Shown here one piece after another: positions 2,792-63,553 of a stretch of DNA of 64,000 bases. Made by a program: the position numbers and the translations under genes. Under the pieces are notes generated by a model. The model saw only the letters and a list, made by a program, of their open reading frames with translations, did no database searches and was not told the origin of the DNA. This DNA comes from Zygnema cylindricum. Taxonomy: Eukaryota > Streptophyta > Zygnematophyceae > Zygnematales > Zygnemataceae. Location of the stretch: positions 62,001 through 126,000 of the forward strand of contig JBBHKE010000404.1 of assembly GCA_037447655.1 (NCBI GenBank), written 5' to 3'. Numbering within the stretch: the stretch's first letter is position 1; every line of letters starts with the position of its first letter.

Positions 2792-3857
2792 TGTTAAAAT
2801 TTGTGTATTTTCTAGGTCTTAATTTATTCTATGTGTTTGTCAGATGGTCTTGTCTAAGTCATCCATACTTGTCGTAGTCAGTGGAAGACAGAGATAGCCA
2901 TGGCCGCCCCGATAGTTAGAAAGAAACATGGAAAAACAAGCAGAAATACTGATAGGTGGCCAAAATGTTGCCTTAGACTGGGTTTGAACTTGGGTCTGTC
3001 ATTTACTATGTAGAAGTTAGCTTTATCCACTAAGGCGTTAACGAAACGATACACGTGACGGGTTTCAAAGATATATAAACATTAACGCAACAGTGAATTA
3101 ACAGCAGACTAACCAAAAGGAGCAATTCATGCATATACGCAAATCTGAACCGTGTAAAATATGTTTTGATCGGACAGCCAGCATTATAGCCGCCACGCGA
3201 AGTGGGCTTTTTGCGGCATACAGAGATAGCGTCACGCGGTGCCACATGGTGCCACATTATTTGATACTGGAGAAGATGGGAGTAGGAACCATGGCTTCCG
3301 ATTTGACAGGTGTCACCTTGTAGACGTTGTTGTACAAGGGATGTACAATAAGTACATCGCCCATTGTACCTTCTTGTACTACATAGTGTTCCTATTCGAC
3401 TAGGGTTTAGTAGTAGGTAGTCGTGAGTAGGCAGACCAAGACTTAGTAAAATTTAGGTACCTCTCTCTAAAAGAGCTTGTAACTATAAAGGTCATCTTTG
3501 ACCAGCCATAACTTAAAGCTCTGGTGAGCAAATTCAGTGATTCTTTTTGCTGCGGACTCAAGGGAGTCTAGCCAACACAGGGGTGTAGTCGGTCAAAGTC
3601 TTTGCCTGCCAAGGTGGCTGCATTTCTAAGGGAAAGTCAAAGTGGGGAATGTTATCCTAAAGTCATATTCTAACTTTGCATTCTGTGGTGGAACTGAGCA
3701 CACCGAAAGTCTTATTTCACACGGGTGAAGCTATAATGGAGTTCTGATTGTAAAGGGGTCAATCATTTGGGTTTATATCAAGTTAGAGTCGGCACTATCT
3801 AGATTAGCTTCTTTTGGATCTGCGAATTTTGTGCGCAATGGAGCCCATAGAATTCCA
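2792..3857 (+). mobile_element. Solo LTR S inserted in the satellite
   Basis: A 1066-bp TG...CA unit interrupts the satellite and is flanked on both sides by GCGCA (2787-2791 and 3858-3862), a 5-bp target-site duplication typical of copia integrase. No internal domain follows, so it is a solo LTR left by LTR-LTR recombination. It has the LTR landmarks shared across the window: TATTTTCTAGGT near the start, an antisense tRNA-like unit, CACGTG (3052-3057), GTAC repeats near 3340-3395, and the gattctttttgct leader block near 3540. The left two-thirds resembles family E and the right third (from about 3530) resembles family C, so it looks mosaic. Confidence 0.9.
2970..3036 (-). other. tRNA-like unit in solo LTR S
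   Basis: Read on the minus strand, this 67-nt stretch starts GCCTTAG and ends CTAAGGC, a perfect 7-bp acceptor-like stem. TGGATAAAG right after the 5' stem is A-box-like and AGTTCAAACCC is B-box-like. A TTTT run lies about 6 nt past the 3' end, where Pol III would terminate. The T-stem is poorly paired, so it is a tRNA relic or mimic and not a working tRNA gene. Confidence 0.6.
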
Positions 3858-3862
3858 GCGCA

Positions 3863-5132: not shown

Positions 5133-6178
5133 AGCAATTATGTGTCCTCCATTAGACTACTAAATACAAGAAGCCTCTAGATAGTTATTAACTAACCCAC
5201 TTTCAATGCAAACCAATGCTACCCAAGCAAAAAAACAGACATTTTGAATGCACCCTTGTGCAGCATGAAATCCCCTGATTTTGTAGAAAAAGAAATCTCT
5301 GAAAACGCCCAACTAAGCGATAAGTTTTAGTGTGGCAAAGATGCCAATTTATACAAACTCTCAAAGAGAGAGACGACTATCTTCCTGATTTTTCCTAAGT
5401 CATAATATTTCCTAGTTCCTCTCACTGCCTCTATCTACTGTATGTACGAACCAATCAGAACATTGTAGAGTACCAGAAAGTACTACTGCGGATGTACTTT
5501 CTGGACGGCCTCTGTACGACAAGGCCATTAGGTGGACGCATGTCCATTTTCCACTCGTCTGTACGTTCCTCGAAATTCGTGCGACCAAATGTTGTCTCTC
5601 CACGTGGCGCCAGGTAATGCCTAGTCACTAAATGCCAAAGTTACCATTCCGGGATTTCGCCGATGATGTGCGCCGTTAGATTTCACGCGAAATGTAATCT
5701 CAACTGCAATAAATACTTGGGCGATATTTGTTTCGATATCGAAACAAAATGCGCGATATGCGTTTCAAATTAGTGTAGTACTTGGTACTTTATCAAATTG
5801 TATCTATGCACGCCGTAAAGATTTTCAGTTAAATGATTTCTGTATAGTACAATAGTTTAAATACTAGTCAAACCCTATATCTCCTAACGGACTTCTACGA
5901 CAAACTCGAAAGAGCTAACGGCTACGCCGTGCTCTGCCGGTCGGGGGTTCGTGTCTTGCCGGACTCAACCTTTTGTTGAGAGTGACTTAAGTCACTCTTT
6001 AGTCCTTCCCATAGAGCTGAGGTAGCCATGGCTCCTTCGCTCTCTCTCTCCTTCAGTGACTAGATCAAGTATGGGGGCGAGAGAGAAGAGATGGAGGCAG
6101 GCTGCCTACATTTTCTTTGTATGTTTTCTGCTAATAAATTAAGACCTAGAAAATGCAATAAAACTAATTATTTCAACA
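5133..6178 (-). repeat. Copia-A 3' LTR
   Basis: 1046 bp, the same length as the LTR at 10515-11560. Its right edge is ...ttcaaca next to the polypurine tract. Its left edge is agcaattatg where the partner has tgcaattctg, so the terminal dinucleotide has mutated. It contains CACGTG (5601-5606), a perfect 11-bp inverted repeat around GTAC (5473-5483 with 5494-5504), CCAAT near 5450, the tRNA-like unit, and a perfect 20-bp palindrome at 5979-5998. Confidence 0.92.
5889..5966 (+). other. tRNA-like unit in copia-A 3' LTR
   Basis: Plus-strand tRNA-like stretch, antisense to the element. The B-box-like GGGGTTCGTGTC precedes CGGACTC, and AGAGCTAACGGCTAC is A-box/D-arm-like. ACGGC-tac-GCCGT forms a perfect short stem in the anticodon region. 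TTTT follows at 5971-5974. The 5' acceptor strand does not pair convincingly. Confidence 0.55.
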
Positions 6179-9200: not shown

Positions 9201-10510
9201 CTGAGGAATGTAAAGTACATCTGAGAATGTAAGTATAGAAGTTTTACCCTCCACTAAGACTTTCAGATCTACTGTTCCCACTAGATCTGTAGTAACCACT
9301 CTCCCATCCCCATACTCTATCTCTACAGTAGGAATCTTTCTTAACTTAGTGAAGAGTTCTTTATCGCGACACATATGCATGGATGCACCTGAGTTGATGA
9401 TCCATCCTTCCTGTGGAGCTTCCCAAATTGCTCCAAGGGCACACTTGTGTCTCCGAGGGATCTCCTTCTCCTCCAAACTCTCGTCAAGAAGAAGCTCCCC
9501 ATCCTCCTCAGAGGACTCATCCTCGGTTTCTCCTGTCACTTTTGTTACCACAAGCGCTTTTTTCTTCCCTCCGGAAGAACCCCCTCCACGATTCTCTTGT
9601 AGCCTCAGCTCTGACAGCTTAACACAATCTGTGATGAAGTGTCCACGCTTTTTGCAAAAATGACAAAAACCCTTTGGGGGCCTCGGTCCCCCAATATGAT
9701 CTTTTTCCTCTCTGTAAGGTTTTTTCGGGTCCTTCCCCCATCGGTCCCCTCCTGCTGCCAGAACTTGAATGCTCTTTCCTCCTCTCCTAATCTCCATTGT
9801 GTTTTCCTGCACAAGTATCATCCTGACCACTGTGTTCCATTTCCATTAACTATCAGGCAATTCTTGTACTCGGTACACTATGTTCTCAAACTCATTTGGT
9901 AACTTCATCATGAGTGTGTTAACTTTCATTTTCATTTTACCTCTCCATCCCGCACTTTCCATCTCCATATACAAACAAGAAAGATCATTTCAGTAATCTA
10001 ACATCTTTCCTCCTTTGTAAGTGTAACTCACTAGCTTTTGCTCATCCAACTGGAGCTCTTGAATAGTTCCAGCTCTATAAATCTCCACTAAACTCACCCA
10101 CAACTCCTCGGCCTTGTAAATGGTAAGATGAGGGGTGGCCAACGCTTGAGTGAGGTGCCTCAGAATGAATTTCTTGGCAGCCATGTTTACATCCTCCCAC
10201 ATTTGAGTATCGTTCTTCGCGGTCTTCACGGTCACCCCTCCTGGTACTGTGGCAATAGGAGTGAGGGGTGTCTCCTTCCCTTTCCCCTTTTCGGACACAC
10301 TGCTATCCCCATCAACTGCCTCCTCCGCTGAGGCAGCCGTTGCTGTAGGAAACCTTACTCCTCCAAATCCTAGTGGAGTTCCTGAAGGTGGAGGACTTGT
10401 CCACTAACGATACCCCAGTATCGTTTTTCGCACAAAGCTCCTATCATCGTAGCTTCCCAATAGATGAACCCAAATCCATTAAAGGTGGGCACCCTAGAGG
10501 GTGAGCCCAT
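6240..10510 (-). pseudogene. Copia-A gag-pol, decayed
   Basis: The reading frame starts at the ATG inside the primer binding site (10510 downward) with MGSPSRVPTFNG and the gag signature FIYWE. Gag continues near 9990-10298. The zinc knuckle CHFCKKRGHFITDC lies near 9630-9670 and the protease has NSGASMHM near 9375-9400 (first Asp replaced by Asn). The HHCC pre-integrase motif WHKRLGHVHFD is near 8965-9005. Integrase (8521-8910) has HTDIW and RSDNGGEY. RT-RNase H (6746-7711, then 6356-6553) keeps YVDDLLVLS. A stop cuts the integrase catalytic-Glu region (PE*NGVAER), and several frameshifts separate gag, integrase, linker and RT. It cannot make a complete polyprotein. The frame choice follows copia homology. 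Confidence 0.9.
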
Positions 10511-10514
10511 AACC
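10503..10514 (-). promoter_or_regulatory. Copia-A primer binding site (half tRNA-iMet)
   Basis: The minus strand reads GGTTATGGGCTCA immediately after the LTR terminus CA. It is complementary to the anticodon arm of initiator tRNA-Met (GGGCCCATAACC), with one difference. Drosophila copia uses this internal site with a cleaved 5' half of tRNA-iMet. The ATG within it opens gag. Confidence 0.85.
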
Positions 10515-11560
10515 TGCAATTCTGTGTCCTCCATTGGACTACAGAATAGAAGAAGCCTCTAGATAGTTATTAACTAACCCACTTTCAATGAAAACCACTG
10601 CTACCTAAGCAGACAAGTGGACAATCTGACTACACCCTTGTGCAGACTAGACTCCTCTTAGTCTGTAGAAAAAGAAATCTGTGAAAACGCCCAATCAAGC
10701 GATAAGTTATAGGGTGGCAAAGATGCCAATTTATACAAACTCTCAAAGAGAGAGACGACTATCTTCCTGATTTTTCCTAAGTCCTAGTTTTTCCTAGTTC
10801 CTCTCACAGCCTCTATCAACTGTATGTACGAACCAATCAGAACATTGTACAGTACCAGAAAGTACTACTGCCGATGTACTTTCTGTACGGCCTCTGTACG
10901 ACAATGCCATTAGGCGGACGCATGTCCATTTTCCACTCGTCCGTACGTTCCCCGGAATTCCTGCGACCAAATGTCGTCTCTCCACGTAGCGCCAGGTCAT
11001 GCCACGTCACTAAATGCCAATGTTACCATTCCGAGATTTCGACGATGATGTGCGCCGTCAGATTTGACGCAAAATGTAATCTCAACTGTAGTAAATACTT
11101 GCGCGATATTTGTTTCGATGTCGAAACAAAATGCGCGATATGCGTTTCAAATTAGTACACTACTTCGTACTTTATCAAACTGTATCTATACACGTCGTAA
11201 AGGTATTTAGTTAAATAATTTGTGTATAGTACAATAGTTTAAATACTAATCAAACCCTATATATCCTAACGGACTTCTACGACAAACTGGTTAGAGCTAA
11301 TGGCTACGCCTTGCTCTACCGGTCGGGGGTTCGAGTCTTACCGGACTCAACCTTTTGTTGAGAGTGACTTAAGTCACTCTTTAGTCCTTCCCATGGAGCT
11401 GAGGCAGCCATGGCTCCATCGCTCTCTCTCTCTTTCAGTGACTACAACAAGTATTGGGGCGAGAGAGAAGAGATGGAGGCAAGCTGCCTACATTTTCTTT
11501 GTATGTTTTCTGCTAATTAATTTAGACCTAGAAAATACAATAAAACTAATTATTTCAACA
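10515..11560 (-). repeat. Copia-A 5' LTR
   Basis: 1046 bp, TG...CA in element orientation, adjoining the primer binding site. It carries the conserved landmarks: the tRNA-like unit, a perfect 20-bp palindrome (11361-11380), CCACGTAGCGCC in place of the CACGTG box of the partner LTR, a GTAC inverted repeat near 10850-10885, CCAATC near 10833, a TATAAATTGG TATA-like site near 10725, and the agattctttttctac-type leader block near 10665. The right flank (acgctcaggt) is not satellite. Confidence 0.92.
11271..11348 (+). other. tRNA-like unit in copia-A 5' LTR
   Basis: The clearest family-A copy. GGTTAGAGCTAATGGCTACG resembles a D-arm and anticodon arm, with ACG at the anticodon position if aligned to a tRNA. 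GGGGTTCGAGTCT is a near-consensus B box, followed by CGGACTC. TTTT lies at 11353-11356. It is antisense to the LTR, as in every other family. Confidence 0.62.
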
Positions 11561-13734: not shown

Positions 13735-14343
13735 TCGGAAAAACGCTCTAAACGTCCTGAAAATTTGCCACAATGTAGATAACATACAAAGAAACACACA
13801 CACAAAATTTCAATCAATTCCGCTCACAAATCTGTGAGATATATAGAAATGAATTTACATAAAACTGAGTGTACAGTTTTCATATCATTTGTTCCTAAAA
13901 ATCAAATTCACGAAGTCCTACTTTTATACACCGAAACTACACTAAGCTGTACGGAGGCATTCCAGCCGTACATCTAACATTCTATCACAAATATTTACAC
14001 CGAAGTTCAGACAACGTAAAGTGATAATGATCTAGTCACGCCTCGTCACTATTTGTTGGCGGCAACTGTCAGCGGTCCGATTAGAGGATTTGGCACCGTA
14101 GAATTGACTTTACGAAGTCCAGTGGTCCTGCCGAATTTCCGTACGTCCACGGAGGACATACTCACGCATTCTCCCAAGTGATGACACGTGTCCCAAGTGT
14201 GAATGAACCGTGAACTCCCAACTTCACTATCACACTAATTTCGGTAAGTACTGAACCGAACACAACCAAAAATAGCTTAAGTCCTGAACAGCTCTCTCTC
14301 AAAGTTGAGGCATAAAGAGGACTAAAGCTTTCTAAGAACAACA
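13735..14343 (-). repeat. Family-G LTR (3' LTR of the chimera), left edge uncertain
   Basis: In element orientation it starts TGTTGTTCTTAG directly after the polypurine tract (14344-14355, ctttaggggag). The start resembles the G LTR ending at 31413 (TGTTGTCTTTTT, then GGAAAGCTTT). It holds a perfect 10-bp palindrome GACACGTGTC containing CACGTG (14185-14190). The left boundary is not resolved; the preceding open frame ends at 13731. I do not see a clear tRNA-like unit in this family. Confidence 0.6.
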
Positions 14344-15910
14344 CTCCCCTAAAGCTTTAGACTCTGCTAGTCACTCAGTCCACATGCCTCTCTACAGAAC
14401 TTCAATTTGGGAGCAGGTAAGGGTTTCGTCATCATATCAGCCACCATTTGCTGATCCGGTAAATAACTCAACTTCAAGACTTTTCCCATCACCTTTTCTC
14501 TTACAAAGTGTAGCTTGATATCAATGTGCTTACTCTTAAAGTGATGACTGGGATTAGATGCAATAGTGATTGCTGCCTGATTATCACACCACACTATCTG
14601 TGGTCCAGATTGCATAAAGAGAAGCTCTTGGAGAAGAGACTTTACCCAAAGTAACTCTTTAACTGCCGAGCTGGCAGCCATGTACTCAGCCTCCATGGTA
14701 GACTGAGCCGTTACCTTCTGAAGTTTGCTGCTCCTGCAGCAAGTTCCACTTCCGATCTTCAAAATGTATCCGGTGGTGGAGCGTCGGCTCGGCATATCTC
14801 CGTAGCTCGCATCGCTCCATGTATGAATTTTGACTTCCTCTCCACCGAGAGAGAGTCTAAGATTTTGAGTTCCTGCAAGATAACGAAGAACTCTCTTTGC
14901 TGCCTCATAGTCTGATTTCCTTGGATTCTGAAGGCTTCGGCTTAAGGCTCCAACTGCTGCTGCGATGTCGGGACGAGTACAATTCATGAAATAAATGAGG
15001 CTTCCGACAATCTGCCAGTAAGGAATGGAGGACATAGAATCTGCCTCCCCTGAATCTAAGAAACCATCAACCAAAACACCACCATCCGTTTCCGTGCCTT
15101 CCAATTTTTGCCTGAATTCCATAGGAGTGGCACTCCCCTTTGCGTCCGACATGCCAAACTTTTCTAACATGTTCTTGATTGCTTCCTTTTGAGTTAAATA
15201 AATAATTTTGTGTTTCCTGTCTCTTTCTACTTGAATTCCTAGAATATACTTAGCCTCACCCAAGTCTTTCATTTCAAACCGGGAATTCAAAGCTGATTTT
15301 ATTTTATTAATCTCATTGATGGATTTGCTAATTAGTAGCAAATCATCTACATAAACTGCCACATAAATCACTCTATCATCACCTTGCATTACATAGACTG
15401 AGTGATCTGAACTGATCCTGGTAAAGCCTAGATTGGTTAAAAACTCATCTAATTTCAGGTTCCATTGCCTCGGAGCCTGTTTCAGACCATAAAGGGACTT
15501 CAACAGTTTACAGACCAGATTTTCTTTCCCTTTTTCTGCATACATCTCTGGCTGCTTCATATAAATTACTTCCTCCAAATCACCATGCAAGAAAGCTGTC
15601 TTAACATCCATCTGATGCAATTCCATATCTTCTATTGCAGCAAGAGATAGCAAAACTCTAACAGTAGGAAAGCAAACCACAGGAGAAAGGTCTCTTCATA
15701 GTCAATTCCCTCCTTTTGGCTAAATCCCTTAGCAACCAGTCTAGCTTTATATCTTTCAATTGTATTATCAGGATTCAATTTTAATTTGAAGACCCACTTA
15801 CAACCGATAGCTTTCCTGTTCGGTGGGAGCTCCACAAGTTCCCAAGTTTGGGCTTCCATAATTGACTTTATCTCTTCATTTGCAGCCGAGATCTAATGAT
15901 CCTTTTCAGG
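14344..15910 (-). pseudogene. Copia-G RT and RNase H (chimera, 3' half)
   Basis: A 437-codon open stretch (14367-15680) encodes most of RT and all of RNase H. RT has the motif YVDDLLLIS and MDVKTAFLHGDLEE; RNase H has TWSDASYGD, STMEAEYMA and WCDNQAAI; the end is CREACGLSD. The RT start ([21 protein letters not shown], 15700-15890) is in another frame because one base is missing near 15690, between EETF and PVVCFP. A stop (tag to cta on plus, near 15895) separates it from the linker. Catalytic residues are intact, so decay is recent or mild compared with copia-A. Confidence 0.88.
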
Positions 15911-17645
15911 AACGGAAAAAGCTTCATGAATAGTAAGCGGCTCCCGTGTGCTTGTAGAAAAAGCACTCTCAACTCGGTCTCCTCGAAGGCGGCTACTTTG
16001 CCTTCTTCCCCCCGGAAAATCTGACGCGGGAACGGTTGGTTCCTTAGATTGCCGCACAAGGCGTGTATTCGGAGGAGCATCGACAGAAGGTGCAGCTCCA
16101 GAAAGAGTATTAGACGGCGCAGAGGCATTTGGGAGAGAGGTAGAAGAAGTAGAAGAGGATGGAGTAAAAGGTACCTGCTCAAGAATGATATACTCTTGTA
16201 TTTTCTCTTTCCTTTCAGCTGCATCCATGCTAAAAACGTCAATAGATTGACTTTCTTCTTTAATCTGAAAAAAACCCTTATCATCTAATATAGATGTAGA
16301 GATGAGGCTTTTGTTCAGCTCCGGAATAAACAATACATCGGAAAATGTTACTATGGATGTCTTTCCTTCTACTAACACTTTTAGATCTACCGATTATACA
16401 AGAGTAGTGGTTACTATCCTCCCATCCCCGTACTCTATCTCTACGGTGGGAATCTTTCTTATCTTAGTGAACAGGTGCCTATCTTTACACATGTGCATGG
16501 AGGCACCTGAATCTATAATCCAGCGTGCTTCACCTTTCAATTCACTGTAAGCACATTTCTGCCTTGGTGGAATTTCGACCTCGTTTTTCGCGTCCAACTC
16601 CTTATCCAAAAGGAGCTCATTGTCCTCGTCCTCAGATTCCGCCTCATGTACCTCTGTCACAAGGGCCTTTTTCTTTCCTCTCAGGGTATTACCGGTCTGC
16701 CCCTCCTTTAACCGAAGCTCGGTTAGCTTAGTGCACTCTGCCATATAGTGCCCACGTTTCTTACAAAAATGACATAAACCTTTGGGAGCCCTTTGTCCGA
16801 ACTCGTCGGCCTGATTTTTTTGCTCCCTTCCACCATAGTTTCCGACCGGTTTCCGGGAATCCTTGTTCCTCCAATCGGTCGCAGTTGCCTACGCTTGGCC
16901 ACTCTTTCCTCCCCTTCGGATCTCAATCATATTCTCCCAAACAAGAATCATCCCTACCACTGAGTTCCATATCCACGTTGAGTCCGGCAAGTCCTGCACA
17001 CGGTTGACTATGTTCTTGATCTCATCGGGTAACTTCATCAGTAAAAAGTTAACCTTTTTTTTTCACTAAAATCTTTTCCCACACTCTCTAGCTCCATGAA
17101 GAGTGAAGCAAGCTCATAACAAAAATCAAACATTTTCCCCCATTTGTATACATATTCGTTAACTTTCTGATGAGCCAATTGTTGTTGCTGAATCGTACCA
17201 CTTCGGTACATCTCTATAAGAGCCATCCACAGATCGGATGCTCTTTCTACCTACAAATGAGGACATGCAAGTCCTTGAGTAATATGGCGTAGGATGAAGT
17301 GCTTTGCGGCCATATTGTTGAAATCCCAGGTTTTAGTATCATTCTCCTTGTTCCTCGGAATAGGTGACATGAATGCTAAACCGGTTGCTATTGGGGTGGT
17401 TGTCTCCTTCTCCGCTCCTTTGTCCACCAACTCTCCTTCCTTTATCTCCTCCATTGAAGATGAACCTGCTTTCTTATTGAATCTGCTTCCTTCAAACCCT
17501 GGAGGAATTTGAAGACTTGAAGGACGCCCCAATCGTCCAGTCACTTCCCCCAAAACCTTTTTTCGCATAGAGCTCCTATCATCATACTTTCCTAGTATAT
17601 GAAGCCAGTACCATTAAAGATTGGTACCCTAGAGGGTTGGCCCAT
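15911..17645 (-). pseudogene. Copia-B gag-protease fused to copia-G linker
   Basis: Starts at the ATG inside the primer binding site (17645 downward), but TAG follows after MGQPSRVPIFNGTGFIY. Gag pieces continue at 17251-17568 and 17038-17226. The zinc knuckle near 16735-16780 and the protease WIIDSGASMHMCKD near 16480-16530 are present. After LVEGKTSIVTFSDVLFIPELNKS the frame passes at about 16270 from family-B pre-integrase into a G-type linker (QSIDVFSMDAAERKEK, then a Ser/Pro/Ala-rich stretch and the GGRRQSSRLR motif). No WHKRLGH, HTDIW or SDNGGEY motif exists between, so integrase is absent. Frameshifts and stops occur in gag. Confidence 0.82.
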
Positions 17646-17649
17646 AACC
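17638..17649 (-). promoter_or_regulatory. Primer binding site of the chimera
   Basis: The minus strand reads GGTTATGGGCCAA next to LTR end CA: the tRNA-iMet anticodon-arm complement with one change. The gag ATG lies inside it. Confidence 0.8.
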
Positions 17650-18720
17650 TGAAACTTTGAGACCTCCATAAGTCCTCAGAGTGGACAGCTTTCAAGAAGC
17701 CTTTAGGATAACTTTGACCCCTTTGTGTTCCAGTAAGAACAACTGCCACCCTGGCAGAAAAAAACTCTAACCAACTTCACCCTTGTGAAGGCAAGACTTC
17801 CTTGAGTTGGTAGCAAAAAGAATCTCTGAATTTGCTCCCCTGAGCAGTAAGTTATGGAGGGTCAAATTTGACCTTTTGTACAAAAGCTCTCTGGGAGAGA
17901 GGGTCTTATCTCCTAATTTTTCTAAGTCCTATTTCTGTCACAGAATTTATCTACTCATATATGGAGCCAATCATATTAGAGTTCCGTACACAAAAGTACA
18001 GCTGCCGGTGTACTTTATGTACGGACACTGTACAACATGGCCTAAATGTCGACACGTGGTATCTCCGGATTTGCTTCCTTAATCCTCGGAGATGCGGCGA
18101 TCGAATGTCATTCCGCCACGTGTCATCCGATGTGGCGATGATCAAAAACCGCCGAAATTCTCTTCTGCGATCTCGGCGTTTAATTTCGACCGTGCGATTA
18201 AATTTACATTTAATCGTAGCCGTAATAAATACATGTGCGGTATTCGTTTCGGTAAAGAAATAAATGCGCGGTATCCGTTTCTTATACGTACTGTAATCCG
18301 TACTTTTACATAACTGGATCTGTGTCTCCCTTAAAAATGTTTCAGTTAAATGAACTATTATACGTATCAATGTTTAATTAATTATCAATCTATATAGTAC
18401 TTAACACTATCTCTAGACTTAACGGTTAGAGCTACCGGCTAACGGATGATTACTGGCCGGCATGTTCTAGGATCAATTCCTGGAGGCACCACATATATTT
18501 TAGTAAATATATTCTTAGTTTTATATAAACTAATAGGTATATCCCGTAAACCTCTGGATAGCCTAGGTAGCCATGGCTCTAGCTTCCTCTCCAATTTCTC
18601 AGTGACTGCGACAAGTTTAAGAGTTGTAGAGAGAAGTTAGAGGTAGACTGCCTCGGCTTCTTTCTATATTTCTTTTCAGACCTAGAAAATACTTAAAAAA
18701 AAAGACCATTAATTTCTACA
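17650..18720 (-). repeat. Family-B LTR (5' LTR of the chimera)
   Basis: 1071 bp, starting TGTAGAAATTAATGG in element orientation, as do the LTRs at 23419, 28826 and the solo copy at 40929-41968. It carries a GTAC inverted repeat near 17995-18030, CCAATC near 17967, CCACGTGTC near 18115-18125 and the tRNA-like unit. Confidence 0.9.
18418..18490 (+). other. tRNA-like unit in B LTR (17650-18720)
   Basis: GGTTAGAGCTACCGG resembles a D-arm/A box. CTAGGATCAATTCCTGG (18467-18483) folds as a 5-bp T-stem with a 7-nt loop. ATTTTAG follows about 10 nt later. Antisense to the element. Confidence 0.55.
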
Positions 18721-23418: not shown

Positions 23419-24474
23419 TGTAGAAATTAATGGTCTTTTAAAGTATTTTCTAGGTGTGAATAGAAATAAGAAATAAGCCGAGGCAGTCTACCTCTAACTT
23501 CTCTCTCGAACTCTCAAACTTGTCGCAGTCACTAAGAAATTGGAGAGGAAGCTAGAGCCATGGCTACCTAGGCTATCCAGAGGTTTACTGGAATATATAT
23601 TTTAGTAAGGGGTTTAATTTACTAAAAGATACGTGTCGACCACAGGATTTGATCCTAGTACCTACCGGCCGGCAGACAGGTGGTAGCCGTTAGCCTTAGA
23701 AGTTAATTCTAGAAGTAGTGTTACGTACTATAGGGTTTGATATTTATCTAAACATTTAAACGTAGGATAGTTCATTTAACTATAACAATTTACGGGAGAC
23801 ATATATCCAGTAAATGTAAAAGTACGGATTCCGGTACGAATACGAAACAAATACCGCGCATTTATTCCTTTAGTGAAACGAATACCGCGCATGTATTTAT
23901 TACGGCTACGATTAAATGTGTATTTAATCGGACGGCCGAAATTAACGCCAAGATCGCAGAAGAGGATTTTGGCGGTTTGTGGTCATTGCCACATCGGATG
24001 ACACGTGGCCGAATGACATTGGATCGCGGCATCTCCGAAGATTAAAGGAGTGAATCCGGACATACCACGTGTCGACATTTAGGCCATGTCGTACAATGGC
24101 CGTACTGAAAGTACACCGGCAGCTCTACTTTTGTGTACGAAACTTAAATCTGATTGGCTCCGTACATCAGTAGATAGAGTCTGTGAGAGAGATAGGACTT
24201 AGAAAAATTAGAAGATAGGACCCTCTCTCCTAGAGAGCTTTTGTACAAAAGGTCAACTTTGACCCTCCATAACTGACTGCTCAGAGGAGCAAATTCAGAG
24301 ATTCTTTTTGCTATCGACTCAGGGGAGTCTTGCGTTCACATGGGTGAAGTTGGTCAGAGTTATTGTCTGCCAGGGTGGTAGTTGTTTTTGCTGAAACACA
24401 AAGGGGTCAGTGTTATCCTAGAGGCTTCTTAGAAGCTGTCCACTCTGAGGACTTATGGAGGTCTCAAAGTTTTT
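23419..24474 (+). repeat. Copia-B 5' LTR
   Basis: 1056 bp starting TGTAGAAATTAATGG; the 3' end has decayed to tttt where the family has ttca. It contains the tRNA-like unit, two CACGTG boxes (24002-24007, 24066-24071), a GTAC repeat (24102-24140) and GATTGGCTCCGTAC (CCAAT type) near 24152. cttttgtacaaaaggtcaa near 24240 takes the TATA-like position, followed by the gattctttttgct leader block. Confidence 0.92.
23634..23704 (-). other. tRNA-like unit in copia-B 5' LTR
   Basis: On the minus strand, CTAAGGCTAACGGCTACC is A-box/D-arm-like and TAGGATCAAATCCTG (23641-23657) is the T-arm/B-box-like part. TTTTAG lies about 15 nt past the 3' end. Antisense to the LTR. Confidence 0.52.
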
Positions 24475-28825: not shown

Positions 28826-29881
28826 TGTAGAAATTAATGGTATTTTAAAGTATTTTCTAGGTCTGAATAGAAATAAGAATGAAGCGGAGGTAGTCTTCCT
28901 CTAACTTCTCTCTCCAACTCTCAAACCTGTCGGAGTCACTGAAAAATTGGAGAAGGAGCTAGAGCCATGGCTACCTAGGCTATCCAGAGGTTTACGTGAA
29001 TATATAATTTAGTTTGGGGTTTAATTTACTAAAAGATATGTGATGGCCACAGGATTTGATCCTGGTACATACTGGCCGGCAGACAGCCGGCAGCCGTTAG
29101 CCTTACCCTTTAATTCTAGAAGTAGTGTTACGTACTATAGGGTTTGATATTTATTTAAACATTTAAACATAGGATAGTTCATTTAATTGTAATTGTTTAC
29201 AAGAGACATATATCCAGTAAATGTAAAAGTACGGATTCCGCTACGAATATGAAACCAATACCGCGCATTTATTGCTTTAGTGAAACGAATACCGCTCATG
29301 TATTTATTACGGCTACGATTAAATGTGAATTTAATCAGACGGCCAGAATTAACGCCGAGATCGCGGAAGAGGATTTCGGCGGTTTGTTGTCATCGCCACA
29401 TCGGATGACACGTGGCGGAATGACATTGGATCGCGGCATCTCTGAAGATTAAGGGAGCCAATCCGGACATACCACGTGTTGACATTTAGGCCATGTCGTA
29501 CAATGGTCGTACAGAAAGTACACCAGTAGCTGTACTTTTGTGTACGAAACTGAAATCTGATTGGCTCTGTACATCAGTAGATAGAGTCTATGAGAGACAT
29601 AGGACTTAGACAAATTAGAAGATAGGACCCTCTCTCCCAAAGAGCTTCTGTACAAAAGGTCAACTTTGACCCTCTATAACTTACTGCTCAGGAGAGCAAA
29701 TTCAGAGATTCTTTTTGCTATCGACTCAGGGGAGTCTTACCTTTGTAGGGGTGAAGTTGGACAGGGTTATTTTCTGCCTGGGTGGGAGTTATTTTTGCTG
29801 AAACACAAAAGGGTCAAGGTTATCCTAGAGGCTTCTTGGAAGCTGTCCACTCTGAGGACTTATGGAGGTCTCAAAGTTTCA
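28826..29881 (+). repeat. Copia-B 3' LTR
   Basis: 1056 bp, same length as the 5' LTR, ending ...agtttca before target duplication cacta. It has the same internal landmarks as the 5' LTR with scattered substitutions, indicating an old insertion. Confidence 0.92.
29044..29112 (-). other. tRNA-like unit in copia-B 3' LTR
   Basis: On the minus strand CCAGGATCAAATCCTGTGG makes a T-arm-like hairpin (CAGGA pairs with TCCTG). The 5' part is more decayed than in the 5' LTR. A cttttag run lies downstream on the minus strand. Confidence 0.5.
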
Positions 29882-38712: not shown

Positions 38713-39245
38713 TGTTGGATTATTATATTTACAAAGTATTTTCTAGGTTTGAATAGCTTAAGTAAACATAGAAAACAAAAAGCGTAGGCAGTCTGCCCCA
38801 ACCTCTTCCCTCTATCCCCCATACTTGTCGTAGTCACTAAACGAAATAGAGGGTGGTGGAGCCATGATTGCCTTGGCTCCTTAGACAATTCGGAAGAAGT
38901 GACATAAGTCATTTCTAACAAAAAGGTTGAGTCCGACAGGACTCAAACCTCCGACCGGCAGAGTGAGGCATAGCTGTCAGCCTTAGCTTGTTTGTCGTTG
39001 AAGTCCGTTACAGTACATGGGGTATGATTAGTATTTAAATGTGTCAGAATTCACTAATCACATTAACGAAATTACAGATAAATAATATAGATACAAAATA
39101 AAATATAGTGTGAAAGTGAAACCCCACGAAACAAAATTACCGGACATTGAATTTCAACACCTAACATTGAAAGACAATTTGGATACAACGACATGCATCA
39201 TCACTTAGATCCTGGAATGATTGCTTTGGTTGTTTTTGAGCATGA
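38713..39245 (+). mobile_element. LTR H, left part, interrupted by copia-F
   Basis: Starts TGTTGGATTATTATA inside copia-G gag, after agatg. It shows the first half of the common LTR plan: ttttctaggttt, ggcagtctgccc, cttgtcgtagtcact, the GTGACATAAGTCA part of the palindrome, the tRNA-like unit and tatttaaat. It stops at 39245 where the copia-F LTR starts, so the remainder should lie beyond the right edge of the window. Related to family A. Confidence 0.75.
38931..39008 (-). other. tRNA-like unit in LTR H
   Basis: On the minus strand GGAGGTTTGAGTCCTGTCGGACTC forms the B-box/T-arm part and AAGCTAAGGCTGACAGC the A-box side. A T5 run follows 5-9 nt after the 3' end. Closely similar to the copia-A units. 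Confidence 0.57.
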
Positions 39246-40194
39246 TGTAATTCTGTGACCTCCATTGGTACACAGATTGTCCAACTTCTATGAAGCCTCC
39301 AGGATAGTATATTCACTTTTGACTTTGACAATCAATAAGTCCCACCCTGGGACGCAAAAACTCTTACCGACTACACCCATATGTAGCCTAGACTCCCCTG
39401 AGTGTGTTACAAAAAGAATCACTGAAATTGCTCCCCTGAGCATTAAGTCATGGCTAGCCAAAGATGGCCTATAAATTCAAAGCACTCTGGGAGAGAGGCT
39501 GAAATCCAAAAAATATTCTAAATCCTAAACTACCTCTCTAAGCCTATTACTAGTGTACCTATCCAATCAAAACATTGTAAGGTACAAGAAGGTACGGGTA
39601 CCGTTGTACTTCTTGTACGGCATGGTACAGCAGGGCCGCTTGGCTGAGGCGTGTCAGTTCTTGAACCGAAGTTGCTCCCTCCGTGATACCCGCTTTCCAA
39701 TCATCCTCCCCCACGTGTCACCCGCCGACATATGCTCAGCAAACTGCCAAAAAATTATTCCGGAATTTTGGCTCGTTTGTGAGCAGTCGATCGCAATCGA
39801 CTTTCAATTTTGACCGTCAAAATTTGATGTTGTTTCGTGCGATACTTTATTTCGTGTGGTCTTGCACGTTTTATGTTCACTTCTTCTTGAAATACGTTAA
39901 GTGAAGTATGTCGACGTGTTAGAATATAAATTAATACCAAACCCAATAAGTATAACATTTCGTCAGGACCTACCAGATAAGGCTAAGGACTACGTCGGAC
40001 GGCCAACATCCGGAGGTCACCGGTTCAAGTCCTACTAGGGACCGCCTAAGTTTTGCATGAAACTAATGCTTCTTCTCTGTCTCCTTACCTACATGAGACA
40101 GCCATGGCTAAGTGCAAGTCCTTAGTGACTACGATAAGTATGAGGGCTGCTGGAAGACCAAAAACGACAAGACTATAAAATACATTTTTCAACA
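39246..40194 (-). repeat. Copia-F 3' LTR
   Basis: 949 bp, starting TGTTGAAAAATG after aaggggag in element orientation and ending ...agaattaca. It carries a perfect 10-bp inverted repeat GTACAAGAAG/CTTCTTGTAC (39582-39618), CCAATC, CACGTG (39712-39717) and the tRNA-like unit. The copy at 63648 shows the same end sequence. Confidence 0.9.
39966..40046 (+). other. tRNA-like unit in copia-F 3' LTR
   Basis: ACCAGATAAGGCTAAGGAC (A-box-like), then ACCGGTTCAAGTCCTAC (near-consensus B box), with GGACCTA near the 5' end partly complementary to TAGGGACC at the 3' end. TTTT follows within about 10 nt (40053). Antisense to the element. Confidence 0.58.
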
Positions 40195-43168: not shown

Positions 43169-44177
43169 TGTGGAAATTACTAGTTTTATCTGGTATTTTC
43201 TAGGTCTGAATTTAGTACAAATGGAAAAAGAAAAAAGGCTGACAGCCTGCCTCCGCCTCCTCTCTCTACCCACAATACTTATCGTAGTCACTGAGGGATG
43301 GAGAGGGTGGCTGAGCCATGGCTGTTCTAGCTTAAGCAGGTTGGGCTAAAGAGTGACTTATGTCACTCTCAACAAAAGGTTGAGTCCTGCAAAACTCGAA
43401 CCTCCGACCGGTAGAGCGCGGCTTAGCCGTTAGCTCTAACCAATCTATCGTAGAAGTCCGTTAGCATATGATAGGTATGATATTTATTTAAATAGTGTTA
43501 CAACCATGAATTCGATTAACGGAATTGCGAACGAAAGAACATGGAACCAAGTATTATATAGTGCGAACATTATCTCGCACGAAAACAAATGAATCGGACA
43601 TTTGTTTTTTACGGCGGACATTCAATATCAAATCTTATCCGATGGCGTACATCGATGCCGAGATCGCGGAATGGTCACTTTTGGCGTTTATGGACGTGGC
43701 ATGATGTGGCGCCACGCGGAGGGATGGCATTTGGTCGAAAGAGATCCTGCGAACATAAGGACAAGTGAAAAGTGGACATGCGTCCACTTAATGTCGTTGC
43801 CGTACATGGGCCCTACAGAAAGTACATCCGCCATAGTACTTTTGTGTACCCTACAATGATCTGATTGGTTCGTACTTCAATAGATAGGGGTTTTGAGAGG
43901 GATTTAGGACTTAGAGAATTTGGTAGATAGGAACCTCTCTCCGTTTGAGAGTTTGTATAAACTTGGCATTGTTGCCGTCTCATAACTTATCGGCTGGTTG
44001 GCCGTTTTCAGTGATTCTTTTTGCTACGAACTCAGGGGAGTCTAGGCTGCACACGAGTGCAGTCAAATTGTCAGTTTGCCCTTTTGGGCAGCAGTGGTTC
44101 TGGCTTGAAGTGGGTTAGTTAAATACTATCTAAAGGCTTCCTGTATTCTGTAGTCTAATGGAGGACACAGAATTGCA
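43169..44177 (+). mobile_element. Solo family-A LTR in copia-F pol
   Basis: 1009 bp, TGTGGAAATTAC...GAATTGCA, with perfect GAGTC duplications (43164-43168 and 44178-44182). The copia-F frame resumes after it (ESQLPIQTEEEN side joined to the NRGEGEVVRRNPRLPS side). It contains the tRNA-like unit, the AGAGTGACaTAAGTCACTCT version of the palindrome near 43350, GTAC repeats near 43820-43850 and GATTGG. Confidence 0.92.
43384..43460 (-). other. tRNA-like unit in solo A LTR
   Basis: On the minus strand TTGGTTAGAGCTAACGGC (A-box-like) and CGGAGGTTCGAGTTTTGC (B-box-like) precede AGGACTC, and TTTT follows 4-6 nt later. CGGC-taa-GCCG pairs in the anticodon region. Very close to the copia-A units. Confidence 0.6.
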
Positions 44178-46687: not shown

Positions 46688-47439
46688 TGTTGAAAGCTAT
46701 GTATTTTCTAGGTCTTAATAGGAAAAATAAAAGGAAGAAATAAAGCAAAGGCAGTATGCTTCTTGTTCCACTCTCCAGTCCCTATACTTGTTGTAAACAC
46801 TGAAGACTGGAGAGAGAGCTAGAACCATGGCTGCCTATGCTGTCTAAGGCGATAGAAAACAGGTTACTATTTAGTCTGTACCAAAATGACTGCCGGCTCT
46901 GGGATTTGATCCTGGTACCTAACGTGTGTAAGATTAACCGGTAGGTGACAGCTTTATCCTGTAAACTAGGATCAGTGGTAGGACATATAGGGTACGATAG
47001 GTATTTAAATAAATACAGGGCAAAGATTCCATTTAACTACTCGGACGGAATCTTTGGCATAAAACGCGCTGTACCTTTTATGCCGCATGAAACAAATGTT
47101 ACGGACATTTGTTTCGACGGTCCGGATAAAAATGCGATGAGAAATCGACGGCCGTGGTGCAAGCCAGGATTCCGGAAAGGCCGCCATAACTTTTTTGGAC
47201 GTCGCCACTCTGAATAACACGTGGCGACATCGTACTTGGTTGCAAGATTTCCAGAGTGCAATTCAACAAGCTCGGATGTGACAGATGTCACCTGTATGGC
47301 GTACCGTACATCTGCTATACAGAAAGTACACTGGCGCCTGTACTTTTCAATACAATACAGTCTTGTGATTGGCGTCGTACTCAATAAAAGGGGTTTTCGA
47401 GAGGGAATACGACTTAGAATATTTTTGGTAGGTAGTCGC
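46688..47439 (+). repeat. Copia-C 5' LTR, first part
   Basis: Starts TGTTGAAAGCTATG, matching the 3' LTR at 62406. It ends at GTCGC (47435-47439), the target duplication of copia-D, and continues at 60064. Confidence 0.92.
46889..46974 (-). other. tRNA-like unit in copia-C 5' LTR
   Basis: On the minus strand, ACAGGATAAAGCTGTCACC (A-box-like) and GGTACCAGGATCAAATCCC (B-box/T-arm-like) precede GCCGGCAGTCATTTTGG; TTTT lies about 10 nt past GCCGGC. Longer than the other units, suggesting an extended variable region. Confidence 0.5.
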
Positions 47440-48469
47440 TATAGAAATAAAAAGGTTATTTTAGTATTTTCTAGGTTTTGCAAAATGCAGAAAAGAAGCA
47501 AAGGCAGTCTGCCTCTAACTTCTCTCTTCAGCTCCCACACTTGTCGTAGTCACTGAAGGTTGAAGAGGGAGCTAGAGCCATGGGTGCCTATGCTGATTAG
47601 AGATAGAGTTACGGGTTGTAGATTTTGGTAGATTTACCAAAATATAAATTGACGGACCGAGGATTTGAACCGGGTACCTATCGTCCACTTTTAGCCTGTA
47701 GCCTTAGCCATTTAGTCTGCCATCATGCTTGGAGATGTATGGTTTGATAGTTATTTAAATCTTAAGACGAAGTCTATTTCATTTAACGGGATCGTTAAAC
47801 ATAGATACAGTTGGTAAAGTACGGCGTACGGAACATTCGAAACGAATACTGCGCATTTTGTTTAGAAAGCGAAAGAAATACTACGGAAGTATTTATGACG
47901 GTCACGATTGTAACCCGGCTTAATCAGACGGCCACGAAGCATGCTGAGATCGTGGAATAGGTTTTCGGCGGTTTGCGGTTGACGTCACGTCAATTGCCAC
48001 GTGGCACAATCACATTGGATTACGACATCTCCTGGGATTCCAGAACGAATCCAAAAATGACATGTGTCGACTTTTTGGCCATGTTGTGCAATATCTGTAC
48101 ATAAAGTACAACGGTACATGTACCTTTATGTAAGATACACTATTATGATTGGTGTCGTACTTCAGTAGATGAGTTTTAGAGAGAGATATGACTTAGAAAA
48201 ATTTGATTGATTAGACTTTCTCTCCCAGAGAGCTCTTGTACAAAAGGTCAACTTTGACCCTTCATAACTTACTGCTCAGGGGAGCAAATTCAGAGATTCT
48301 TTTTGCTATAGACTCAAGGGAGTCTTGCCTTTACAGAGGTGAAGGGGGTCAGAGTTTTGGTCTGCCAGGGTGGCATTTATTCTTGCTGAAACACAAAGGG
48401 GTCAGGGTTATCCTAGAGGCTTCGTGTGAGCTGCCTATTCTGAGGTCCTATGGAGGTCTCAGAGTTACA
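47440..48469 (+). repeat. Copia-D 5' LTR
   Basis: Begins tatagaaataaaaagg where the 3' LTR has TGTAGAAATAAAAAGG (first bases mutated) and ends ...gagttaca. It contains a 12-bp perfect palindrome TGCCACGTGGCA (47995-48006), GTACATAAAGTAC with CATGTACCTTTATG (about 48098-48130), GATTGG and the leader block. Confidence 0.92.
47651..47721 (-). other. tRNA-like unit in copia-D 5' LTR (71 nt)
   Basis: The best tRNA-length copy. On the minus strand it runs from GGCAGAC to GTCCGTC, which pair at 6 of 7 positions counting one G-T. The loop TTCAAAT is followed by exactly 5 + 7 nt to the end, as in a tRNA. CCGGTTCAAATCC is a B-box match; ATGGCTAAGG is A-box-like. TTTT follows about 12 nt later. Confidence 0.65.
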
Positions 48470-49685: not shown

Positions 49686-50576
49686 TGTTGAAAAGAGGTA
49701 ATTAATAGTTCATTTCCCTATTTTAGTTTTGTTTTAAAGAAAGAGAGTAAGGATCAAAGGCGCACCATGGCTGCCGCCATATTTAGAAAGTGGCAGTTTG
49801 TGCAGTTAAGGGTATTTTGGCTAAAATGATGCCTAAGTCTAGATTTGAACCTGTGACCTCTAGATTCTTTATAGCCTAACGCCTTAACCATTAAGGCGTT
49901 ACGAAACGTTACACGTGACGGGTTTCATAAATATATAAACATTAACGAAACAGCTAATTAACAGCAGACTAACCAAAATGAGCAATTTCTGCATGTACGC
50001 GAATCTGAACCGTGTAAAATATGTTTTGATCGGACGGCCGGCATTATAGCCGCCACGGGAAGTGAGCTTTTCGGCGGCATACGGATATAGCGTCACGCGG
50101 TGCCACGTGGCGCCACATTATTTGATACCGGAGAAGATGGGAGGAGGAACCATGGCTTCCGATATGACAGGTGTCACCTTGTAGACCTTGTCGTACAATA
50201 GTTGTACAATAAGTACATCGCCCATTGTACCTTCTTGTACTTTATAGTGTTCCTATTGGACTAGGGTTTAGTAGCAGGTAGTCGTGAGTAGGCAGACCGA
50301 GACTTAGTAATATTTAGGTACCTCTCTCTCTAAGAGAGCTTGTAACTATAAAGGTCATCTTTGACCAGCCATAACTTACTGCTCGGGTGAGCAAATTCAG
50401 TGATTCTTTTTGCGTTTGACTCAGGGGAGTCTTGTCCTCACAAAGGTGAGAGTGGTCAGAATATTTGTGTGCCTGGGCGGCACTTATTCAGCGGGAAAGT
50501 ACAAGGGGCAAATATTATCCTAGAGGCTTTACATAGGCTGCTCATTCTGTGGGTCAATGGAGACCACATAATTTCA
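49686..50576 (+). repeat. Copia-E 5' LTR
   Basis: TGTTGAAAAGAGG...ATTTCA. It contains the tRNA-like unit, CACGTG at 50104-50109, the GTAC cluster 50193-50243 and tgtaactataaagg in the TATA position near 50340. TCAGTGATTCTTTTTGCG near 50397 is the leader block. Confidence 0.95.
49831..49897 (-). other. tRNA-like unit in copia-E 5' LTR
   Basis: On the minus strand it starts GCCTTAA and ends CTTAGGC (5 of 7 paired), with ATGGTTAAGGCGTT (A box) and CAGGTTCAAATC (B box). AACGCCTTAA-TGG-TTAAGGCGTT is a perfect 10-bp inverted repeat at its 5' end. CATTTTAG follows the 3' end. Alternative folding with GCCT/AGGC as a D-stem resembles tRNA-Arg. Confidence 0.6.
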
Positions 50577-55006: not shown

Positions 55007-55886
55007 TGTTGAAAAGAGGTAATTAATAGTTCACTTCCTTATTTTAGTTTTGTTTTAAAGAAAGAGAGTAAGGGTCAAAGGCGCACCATGGCTGCCGCCA
55101 TATTTAGAAAGTGGCAGTTTGTGCAGTTAAGGGTATTTTGGCTAAAATGATGCCTAAGTCTAGATTTGAACCTGTGACCTCTAGATTCTTTATAGCCTAA
55201 CGCCTTAACCATTAAGGCGTTACGAAATGTTACACGTGACGGGTTTCATAAATATATAAACATTAACGAAACAGCTAATTAACAGCAGACTAACCAAAAT
55301 GAGCAATTTCTGCATGTACGCGAATCTGAACCGTGTAAAATATGTTTTGATCGGACCGCCGGCATTATAGCCGCCACGCGAAGTGAGCTTTTCGGCGGCA
55401 TACGCATATAGCGTCACGCGGTACCACGTGGCGCCACATTATTTGATACCAGAGAAGATGGGAGGAGGAACCATGGCTTCCGATATGACAGGTGTCACCT
55501 TGTAGACCTTGTCGTACAATAAGTACATCGCCCATTGTACCTTCTTGTACTTTATAGTGTTCCTATTGGACTAGGGTTTAGTAGTAGGTAGTCGTGAGTA
55601 GGAAGACCGAGACTTAGTAATATTTAGGTACCTCTCTCTCTAAGAGAGCTTGTAACTATTAAGGTCATCTTTGACCAGCCATAACTTACTGCTCGGGTGA
55701 GCAAATTCAGTGATTTTTTTTGCGTTTGACTCAGGGGAGTCTTCTCCTCACAAGGGTGAGAGTGGTCAGAATATTTGTGTGCCTGGGCGGCACTTATTCA
55801 GCAGGAAAGTAGAAGGGGCAAATATTATCCTAGAGGCTTTACATAGGCTGCTCATTCTGTGGGTCAATGGAGACCACAGAATTTCA
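55007..55886 (+). repeat. Copia-E 3' LTR
   Basis: 880 bp; about 98% identical by eye to the 5' LTR but without 11 bp (tagttgtacaa) in the GTAC cluster near 55515. Confidence 0.95.
55152..55218 (-). other. tRNA-like unit in copia-E 3' LTR
   Basis: Identical in layout to the unit at 49831-49897: A-box-like and B-box-like motifs, the 10-bp inverted repeat and downstream TTTT, with no disruptive change. Confidence 0.6.
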
Positions 55887-59025: not shown

Positions 59026-60058
59026 TGTAGAAATAAAAAGGTTATTTTTAGTATTTTCTAGGTTTTGCAAAATGCAGAAAAGAAGCCGAGGCAGTCTGCC
59101 TCTAACTTCTCTCTTCAGCCCCCACACTTGTCGTAGTCACTGAAGGTTGAAGAGGGAGCTAGAGCCATGGCTGCCTATGCTGATTAGAGATAGAGTTACG
59201 GGTTGTAGATTTTGGTAGATTTACCAAAATATAAATTGACGGACTTAGTATTTGAACCTAGTACCTACCGTCCAACACTTAGCCTGTAGCCTTAGCCATT
59301 TAGTCTGCCATCATGCTTGGAGATATTTGGTTTGATAGTTATTTAAATGTTAACACGTAGTCTATTTCATTTAACGGGATCTTTAAACATAGATACAGTT
59401 TGTAAAGTACGGCGCACGAAACATACGAAACAAATACTGAGCATTTTGTTTAGAAAGCGAAACAAATACTCCGGAAGTATTTATAACGGTCATGATTGTA
59501 ATCCACCTTAATCGGACGGCCTCGAAGCATGCCGAGATCGTGGAATAGGTTTTCGGCGGTTTGCGGTTGACGTCACGTCAATTGCCACGTGGCACAATCA
59601 CATTGGATTACGACATCTCCTGGGATTCCAAGAACGAATCCAAAAATGACATGTGTCGACTTTTTGGCCATGTAGTACAATATCGGTACATAAAGTACAA
59701 CGGTACATGTACCTTTATGGATGATACACTATTATGATTGGTGCCGTACTTCAGTAGATGAGTTTTAGAGAGAGATAGGACTTAGAAAAATTTGATTGAT
59801 TAGACCCTCTCTCCCAAAGAGCTCTTGTACAAAAGGTCAACTTTGACCCTTCATAACTTACTGCTCAGGGGAGCAAATTCAGAGATTCTTTTTGCTATAG
59901 AATCAGGGGAGTCTTGCCTTTACAGGGGTGAAGGTGGTCAGAGTTTTGGTCTGCCAGGGTGGCAGTTATTCTTGCTGAAACACAAAGGGGTCAAGGTTAT
60001 CCTAGAGGCTTCGTGTGAGCTGCCTACTCTGAGGTCCTATGGAGGTCTCAGAGTTACA
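59026..60058 (+). repeat. Copia-D 3' LTR
   Basis: 1033 bp, ends ...gagttaca followed by target duplication GTCGC. Same internal landmarks as the 5' LTR, with terminal TG intact. Confidence 0.93.
59238..59309 (-). other. tRNA-like unit in copia-D 3' LTR (72 nt)
   Basis: On the minus strand it runs GGCAGAC...GTCCGTC like its partner, with AGGTTCAAATAC (B-box-like, one change) and ATGGCTAAGG. TTTT follows within about 14 nt. Confidence 0.62.
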
Positions 60059-62405: not shown

Positions 62406-63553
62406 TGTTGAAAGTTATGTATTTTCTAGGTCTTAATAGGAAAATAAAAAGAAGAAATAAAGCAAAGGGAGTCTGGTTCTCGCTCCACTCTCGAGTCCCC
62501 ATACTTGTTGTAGTCACTGAAGACTGGAGAGAGAGCTACAGCCATGGCTGCCCATGCTGTCTAAGGTGACAGAAAACAGGCTACTACTTAGTCTGTACCA
62601 AAATGATTGCCGGCTCCGAGATTTGATCCTGGTACCTAACGTCTGTTAGATTAACCGGTAGGTGACAGCTTTATCCTGTAGACTAGGATCAGTGCTAGGA
62701 CATATAGGGTACGATAGGTATTTAAATAAATAACAGGGCAAAGATTCCATTTAACTACTAGGACAGAATCTTTGGCATAGAACGCGGTGTACCTTTTATG
62801 ACGCATGAAACAAATGTTACGGACATTTGTTTCAACGGTCTGGATAAAAATGCGATGAGAAATCGACGGCCGTGGTGCAAGCCGGGATTCCGAAAAGTCC
62901 GCCTTGGCTTTTTCCGACGCTGCCACTCCGAATTACACGTGGCAATATCGTACTCAGTTGCGGGATTTCCGGAGTGCAAATCAACAAGCTCAGATGTGAC
63001 AGATGTCACCTGTATGGCCTGTCGTACATCTACTGTACAGAAAGTACACTGGCGCCTATACTTTTCTGTACAGTACAGTCTTGTGATTGGCGTCGTACTT
63101 CATTGGAAGGGGTGCTAAAGAGGGAATAGGACTTAGAATATTTTGGGTAGGTGGTCGCCTCTCCCAGAGAGCATCTTGTATAAAAGGCAAACTTTGGCAA
63201 GCTATATCTATCAATTTACTTGACCATTTTCAGTGATTCTTTTCGCTACAGACTCAATGGAGTCTAGGCTACACAGGGGTGTACTCGATCAGAGTTTTTG
63301 TCTGCCAAGGTGGAGGTATTTCTAAGGGAAATTCAAAGTGGGTGAATGTGTCCAAATCTTATATTCTAACTTTGCATTTTGTAACAAACTAAGCACGCAA
63401 AAAAGTGTTATTTCACATGGGTGAATTTTTATTGGGTTGTGACTGTCAAGGGGTCAGTCATTTGGGTTTATATCAACTTAGAGTCGGCACTATCTAGATT
63501 TGCTTCTTTTGGATCTGCTTACTCTGAGGGCTAATGGAGGTCTTAGAGTTTCA
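62406..63553 (+). repeat. Copia-C 3' LTR
   Basis: 1148 bp and uninterrupted. It contains the tRNA-like unit, CACGTG (62936-62941), a GTAC inverted repeat (63035-63071), GATTGG (63085), TATAAAAG (63179-63186), then the leader block gattcttttcgct and a 3' third shared with solo LTR S. It ends ...gagtttca. Confidence 0.94.
62608..62690 (-). other. tRNA-like unit in copia-C 3' LTR
   Basis: On the minus strand, CTACAGGATAAAGCTG (A-box-like) and ACCAGGATCAAATCTCGG (B-box/T-arm-like) precede GCCGGCAATCATTTTGG, with TTTT 6-10 nt downstream. Differs from the 5' LTR copy at a few positions. Confidence 0.52.

Follow-up and report, generated by a model that had tools for sequence, protein, structure and literature searches.

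The heads of tRNA-derived short interspersed elements (SINEs) of the SINE2 class keep the boxes of the RNA polymerase III (Pol III) promoter and have lost the cloverleaf, and the 'let' transcripts of the murine leukaemia virus (MuLV) long terminal repeat (LTR), which our literature search did not recover, are a case of Pol III reading of an LTR. The subject of the present analysis is a stretch of 64,000 nucleotides of Zygnema cylindricum DNA (assembly GCA_037447655.1, contig JBBHKE010000404.1, positions 62,001 to 126,000 of the forward strand), hereafter the window, in which 16 LTR copies from about ten Ty1/copia families contain an antisense stretch of about 75-90 nt that, judged from its letters, is tRNA-derived. 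As in SINE2 elements the boxes are kept and the cloverleaf is lost, whereas here the unit lies inside LTRs and is copied with the copia element.

The nearest known parallel, and the only close work in the literature searched, is Helenus (TRIMp3). This group consists of non-autonomous terminal-repeat retrotransposons in miniature (TRIMs) of 311-1263 bp with a tRNA-like sequence in the LTR, in which the letters of boxes A and B are conserved and mostly no functional tRNA is present (Kojima 2024, PMC10886601). Most fungal Helenus families have a copia-like primer binding site (PBS) directed to a tRNA anticodon loop, most frequently that of the initiator tRNA. The same paper states that 'not a few' Repbase LTRs contain part of a tRNA, pursues only the TRIMs, and judges a long stretch common to the LTRs of TRIMp3 and of its autonomous partner to be unlikely (PMC10886601). 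The words 'antisense' and 'opposite' are absent from it, and the orientation of the tRNA-like part is unstated in the accessible portion. The Z. cylindricum units resemble Helenus as described there in being tRNA-derived LTR sequences with A and B boxes, the A box being degenerate here, and in the type of PBS. They differ in that Helenus elements are short, non-coding TRIMs, whereas the units lie antisense in LTRs of about 0.9-1.15 kb that belong to gag-pol elements; it is the antisense orientation and the autonomous elements that set them apart. Cassandra, which a sequence-only reading of the window had named as the nearest parallel, is indeed a parallel, having the promoter of a small-RNA gene within its LTR, but Helenus is the closer one: Cassandra is a TRIM that carries 5S rRNA and not tRNA, and its promoter makes the element's own RNA (PMC10886601). 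No match to 5S rRNA was obtained in the window at E up to 10. The tRNA-derived Pol III promoters of small non-autonomous elements are thought to drive the element itself (PMC10886601), and backward units in autonomous copia LTRs, in which the positions invariant in tRNAs are largely retained, suggest a retroelement clade that uses Pol III factors otherwise than for its own genomic RNA. No antisense tRNA-derived units in autonomous copia LTRs were found in the literature searched, Repbase and most subscription papers lying outside that search.

The window is packed with nested Ty1/copia elements, the nesting being our reading of the LTR comparison, and the host genome measures 352.8 Mb; its tRNAs and a 5.8S rRNA have a green-algal or streptophyte appearance. 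Membership of Ty1/copia is given by a copia-type pol (RVT_2 match, 1.7e-80) together with LTR pairs that are 90-97% identical, a PBS and a purine tract (PPT). The PBS GGTTATGGGCYCAC, which we take to be complementary to the anticodon arm of the initiator tRNA, directly adjoins the LTR end and the PPT precedes the 3' LTR. Copia open reading frames sit between the LTR pairs, so coding capacity is present and the elements are autonomous.

The first 480 nt of 18 LTR starts were aligned with MAFFT in element orientation. The unit is homologous and in the same place in 16 of them, roughly 150-290 nt from the LTR start and immediately ahead of TATTTAAA/TATATAAA; it is absent from the two starts at 14343(-) and 35338(-). 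Its antisense reading presents in order GGNTARRGC, a GGTC-like variable region, the B box GGWTCRA and a run of four T (T4), which correspond to the A box, B box and terminator of a Pol III type 2 unit, with a degenerate A box. The claim of the sequence-only reading that at least 14 LTR copies carry antisense tRNA-like units with these parts is thus borne out, for many related copia families. The unit of LTR A5 is antisense because its element runs on the minus strand, with pol on that strand and the PBS at 10501-10514 (-), and the unit on the plus strand. The LTR, its presumed TATA and the units are the following.

10515..11560, minus strand: LTR A5 (5' LTR), paired with 5134-6178, 91% identical
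11238..11245, no strand assigned: TATA TTTAAATA / TATTTAAA, presumed sense TATA; starts 51 nt upstream of the D-loop GG, at roughly -33 relative to the antisense unit
11258..11365, plus strand: unit A5; A box 11279-11290, D-arm-like GGTTAGAGC to 11297 with G18G19 at 11289-11290, B box GGTTCGAGTC at 11328-11337 with 0 mismatches, TTTT at 11353-11356
5876..5983, plus strand: unit A3, B box damaged (GGTTCGTGTC); MAFFT alignment
18400..18507, plus strand: unit C18, matched by the host tRNA covariance model over the full length, 22 bits
41649..41756, plus strand: unit C41, without T4 terminator; host tRNA covariance model
39952..40059, plus strand: unit X40; alignment and host tRNA profile hidden Markov model (HMM)
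23618..23725, minus strand: unit B5, D-loop GG lost; alignment
29025..29132, minus strand: unit B3; alignment
47634..47741, minus strand: unit D5; alignment and host tRNA covariance model
59221..59328, minus strand: unit D3; alignment and host tRNA covariance model
49814..49921, minus strand: unit E5, top host-tRNA match (27.6 bits HMM, 23.5 bits covariance model)
55135..55242, minus strand: unit E3; host tRNA HMM and covariance model
46875..46982, minus strand: unit S46; alignment and A/D-arm + B-box matrix
62592..62699, minus strand: unit S62; alignment and A/D-arm + B-box matrix
43365..43472, minus strand: unit G43, sole aligned unit with T4 within its body
38912..39019, minus strand: unit H38; alignment
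2953..3060, minus strand: unit of a further aligned row; MAFFT alignment and host tRNA covariance model

A matrix combining A/D arm and B box placed all 16 window units among the top 29 of 1382 retained local maxima. As this matrix had been written after the LTR alignment was seen, it was applied unchanged to an unseen 200-kb block from another contig, where 22 of the 24 LTR units, all antisense, fell in the best 36 of 3570; the two remaining units came in at ranks 81 and 1077, and rank 30 was held by a sense-strand match that also lies within an LTR. Independent models were built from tRNA genes of the same genome (26 of the 63 listed loci, LTRs excluded) and run over window and block, 264 kb together. 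With the profile HMM the ten top-scoring of 78 matches are all antisense LTR units (27.6 to 8.5 bits), the E family coming first and A5 third, as against 6.8 bits at best in shuffled sequence. A covariance model with the cloverleaf structure, made from 18 of the 26 loci and cut off at E up to 10, gave 23 matches of which 20 are antisense LTR units (7 of the 16 in the window, 13 of the 24 in the block); the other three are at L050:9428, window 10489-10548 and L033:7840. The covariance check proposed in the sequence-only reading was positive with the host model, whereas the Rfam tRNA model RF00005 reported no unit at E up to 10, either in the window or around E5. A sequence-only host tRNA model had 8 units among 11 matches. 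C18, C41, D5, D3 and several block units were found by the cloverleaf model and missed by the sequence-only one, so traces of the tRNA fold remain; conversely, A5, X40 and K12 were found by the sequence-only model and missed by the cloverleaf model. The D arm of the E family best matches host tRNA-Arg, and other units match other tRNAs.

As a side observation, two of the non-unit covariance matches (14.7 bits, sense strand) cover the LTR end and PBS of the A family, at window 10489-10548 (-) and L050:9428-9487 (+).

A functional tRNA gene was rejected as an explanation, since the standard finders miss the unit and no cloverleaf is conserved. With default settings ARAGORN gave 0 tRNA genes at the units; at thresholds of 50-60% it reported 12 of the 16, together with one of the two unit-less LTRs, and A5 was unreported at every threshold tried. 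RNAalifold on the aligned units returned no common structure (0 pairs). Across families 41.8% of the acceptor cells, 50.0% of the D cells and 75.4% of the T cells are paired, so that the kept acceptor stem of the sequence-only reading is not upheld. For the perfect 7-bp stem ascribed to family S the best pairing that we obtained was 6 of 7, and the 6 of 7 pairs ascribed to family D are present, although 184 and 195 of 200 shuffles do as well. The whole cloverleaf is slightly above column shuffles (54.4% against 51.3% paired, 2/500; covariation 0.199 against 0.159, 2/500) and no better than a version slid by one column, with 45 doubly changed cells each and a slid covariation of 0.218.

The letters that tRNAs hold constant behave otherwise. 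Among 16 lineage representatives, picked by us (B3 for example was chosen, and B5 with its lost GG was not), 15 columns taken as invariant in tRNAs have a mean pairwise identity of 0.82 against 0.52 in 55 others (P 3e-5), and columns invariant in the host tRNAs (14 of 17 used) 0.81 against 0.53 (P 1.5e-4), both P values being too small because the units are related, the representatives were chosen by hand and the alignment was possibly anchored on motifs. G19, A21, U33, G53, U55, A58 and C61 are identical in the 16 representatives wherever a letter is present. In 35 aligned units A21, U33, G53 and U55 reach 100%, C56 and A58 97%, and G19 and C61 91%. Three letters of the former anticodon loop, C32, U33 and A34, are also strongly kept (94, 100 and 91% of the 35 units; 11304-11306 in A5), although all three are outside the Pol III boxes.

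When LTR identity is profiled across families, the B box (0.62-0.66) and the D arm (0.59) form peaks, and higher ones stand at other LTR motifs, namely CTTGTCGTAGTCACT (0.76), TATTTAAA (0.72) and CCATGGCTGCC (0.71). The blocks CTTGTCGTAGTCACT and CCATGGCTGCC (window 11398-11453, and homologous places elsewhere) thus exceed the unit in conservation.

The flanks of the unit carry two further candidate Pol III signals. T4 follows the T arm within 24 columns in 34 of the 35 aligned units, the exception being C41, exactly as the sequence-only reading had it for the copy near 41665. Counted another way, the 20 nt where the terminator should fall contain a T4 in 89% of 38 LTRs of window and block, compared with 13% of 20-nt windows of these LTRs. 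Inside the unit body T4 is found once in 35 (G43) and in 52% of 290 control windows taken from these LTRs; TTT is depleted there, with 8 occurrences against 16.5 expected, unlike AAA, with 23 against 21.3. Upstream, 53 of 70 LTRs have a TATA-like octamer that starts 50-51 nt ahead of the D-loop GG (25 of the 38 LTRs of window and block show it, and the other 32 LTRs came from an A-family search), a set in which fuzzy B-box matching misplaced some rows. The sequence upstream of host tRNA genes is AT-richest at -36 to -19, which spans the position of about -33 where the TATA of the unit falls. On these alignments, fold and body are drifting while the tRNA-invariant positions, the TATA spacing and the downstream T4 stay, and the unit looks more like a second, antisense promoter than like a tRNA.

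Reverse transcriptases (RTs) were assigned to LTRs by position, two further rows of the tree being unassigned. Eleven unit-bearing RTs are on one side and two unit-less RTs on the other side of a branch with 100/100 support, and 8 of the 12 inner branches are open, a topology that fits one gain, or one loss, of the unit. First-look searches of the whole genome gave 2497 candidates for the A unit and 1067 for the E unit, of which 40 each were scored, and these counts suggest a high copy number. Free-standing SINE copies were not recognised anywhere in the 264 kb, no test having been aimed at such copies with a LINE-type tail.

The reading that we favour, and to which we give an even chance, is that a single old capture of a tRNA or SINE head survives as an antisense promoter for Pol III/TFIIIC, possibly using the sense TATA as well. 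The captured piece would have been a tRNA gene or the head of a tRNA-derived SINE, inserted once, in antisense orientation, into what is presumed to be the U3 of the copia clade's ancestor, and inherited as the clade radiated, as the shared position and the RT tree suggest. The fold would then have decayed, whereas G19/A21 and the larger part of the B box are still present, as are the TATA at about -33 and the T4 just downstream; given these, the unit would most likely still bind TFIIIC/TFIIIB and let Pol III make a short antisense RNA, some 80-100 nt long. Since the TATA at -33 is TATTTAAA, at the place expected for the sense RNA polymerase II (Pol II) TATA, the LTR would probably be a back-to-back promoter, Pol III in antisense and Pol II in sense, around one TATA, which would keep this part of the LTR nucleosome-free or set the level of sense transcription. 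A bolder version, speculative and in our opinion unlikely, is an autonomous copia clade with a bidirectional promoter, in which one TATA serves both Pol II sense genomic RNA and a Pol III terminated antisense RNA from a domesticated tRNA, with family-specific control of copy number. Because the unit body diverges freely and the promoter letters are fixed, the antisense RNA would differ from family to family and be directed at the LTR of the family that makes it; if true, such RNAs would amount to copy-number control resembling the incompatibility RNAs of plasmids.

Several observations speak against the favoured reading, beginning with the kinship of the units and the hand-picking of representatives that make the P values too small. 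Taken as a whole, the unit evolves like the rest of the LTR: its identity is the higher in 8 of 21 pairs among seven families, with means of 0.53 and 0.55. U8, A14 and U54 are not conserved, which is why the A boxes are degenerate, and U33 is invariant despite lying outside the Pol III boxes. Nor is the scarcity of T4 within the body specific to one strand, because A4 is equally rare there (1 of 35, against 48% of control windows); against shuffles T4 has P 0.07. The counts of TATA spacing have no chance control, and the TATA may serve the sense promoter only. With two unit-less rows the clustering on the RT tree does not exceed chance (28 of 500 shuffles gave a value as low), and 9 of the 16 window units, A5 included, escape the host covariance model.

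A site for TFIIIC only, either a boundary or architectural element like the extra TFIIIC (ETC) sites or a landing pad for copia insertions with no real antisense RNA, is possible, although we hold it with rather low confidence. It agrees with the keeping of box positions and not of the fold, and with the heavy nesting of elements that we read in the window; nesting is however expected from the element density anyway, and neither T4 after 34 of 35 units nor a fixed TATA spacing is needed for TFIIIC binding alone.

That the unit is a relic, an old tRNA or SINE insertion inherited neutrally and with no present function, is a reading to which we give about the same rather low confidence. The equal between-family identity of unit and remaining LTR agrees with it, as do the failure of the default tRNA finders and the matching rarity of T4 and A4 in the body. 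The same equality undoes the argument for selection made in the sequence-only reading, which took the retention of the whole unit as its evidence, because over its full length the unit shows no more conservation than the LTR does; the families, said there to differ strongly otherwise, have LTRs that are homologous over much of their length. Nevertheless seven tRNA-invariant columns are identical in 16 lineages in which the other unit columns are 0.52 identical, and T4 persists after the unit though its context changes.

A function on the sense strand, with LTR RNA complementary to cellular tRNAs (in packaging, priming or an effect on translation) or forming a hairpin, is very unlikely. What favours it is a local stem closing round the T arm, distinct from the cloverleaf and chosen after the sequences were inspected, which is present in 19-20 units with 71% of its cells paired. 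Together with the T stem it has 44 doubly changed cells against a shuffled mean of 21 (0/500) and 31 at best when slid, and so may be a real inverted repeat; it is here, and only here, that the compensatory changes proposed as a check by the sequence-only reading are clear. The wobble counts (G.U/A.C) are 10/15 in the outer stem and 19/13 in the T stem, so neither RNA strand is clearly favoured and the antisense strand is not supported outright. Yet A.C in the outer stem is rarer than in shuffles, G.U minus A.C being -5 against -9.1, a slight lean to antisense (P 0.03) that the T stem lacks (P 0.80). Moreover, the conservation concerns universal tRNA positions rather than an extended match with any single tRNA, the PBS is presumably of the initiator-tRNA type whereas the E unit is Arg-like, and the arrangement of TATA and T4 would be left unexplained.

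Chance resemblance in AT-rich LTRs can practically be dismissed, for although single boxes are common (34 near-matches to GGTTCRANTC against 25 expected), the independent host-tRNA models and the unseen block yield the same units.

Other features of the window concern its elements more generally. The element at 14343-18720 appears to be a chimera, with 5' LTR and gag of C type and pol and 3' end from the unit-less clade, according to our own reading. Positions 1-4500 hold a tandem satellite array with a 40-bp repeat and an E-like LTR fragment at 2792, and 19993-20442 a fragment of a DDE_1 transposase, presumably of pogo/Tigger type. The LTR 3' ends of another family, 89% identical to each other, are located at 39246-39600 and 63648-64000, the second running past the window edge.
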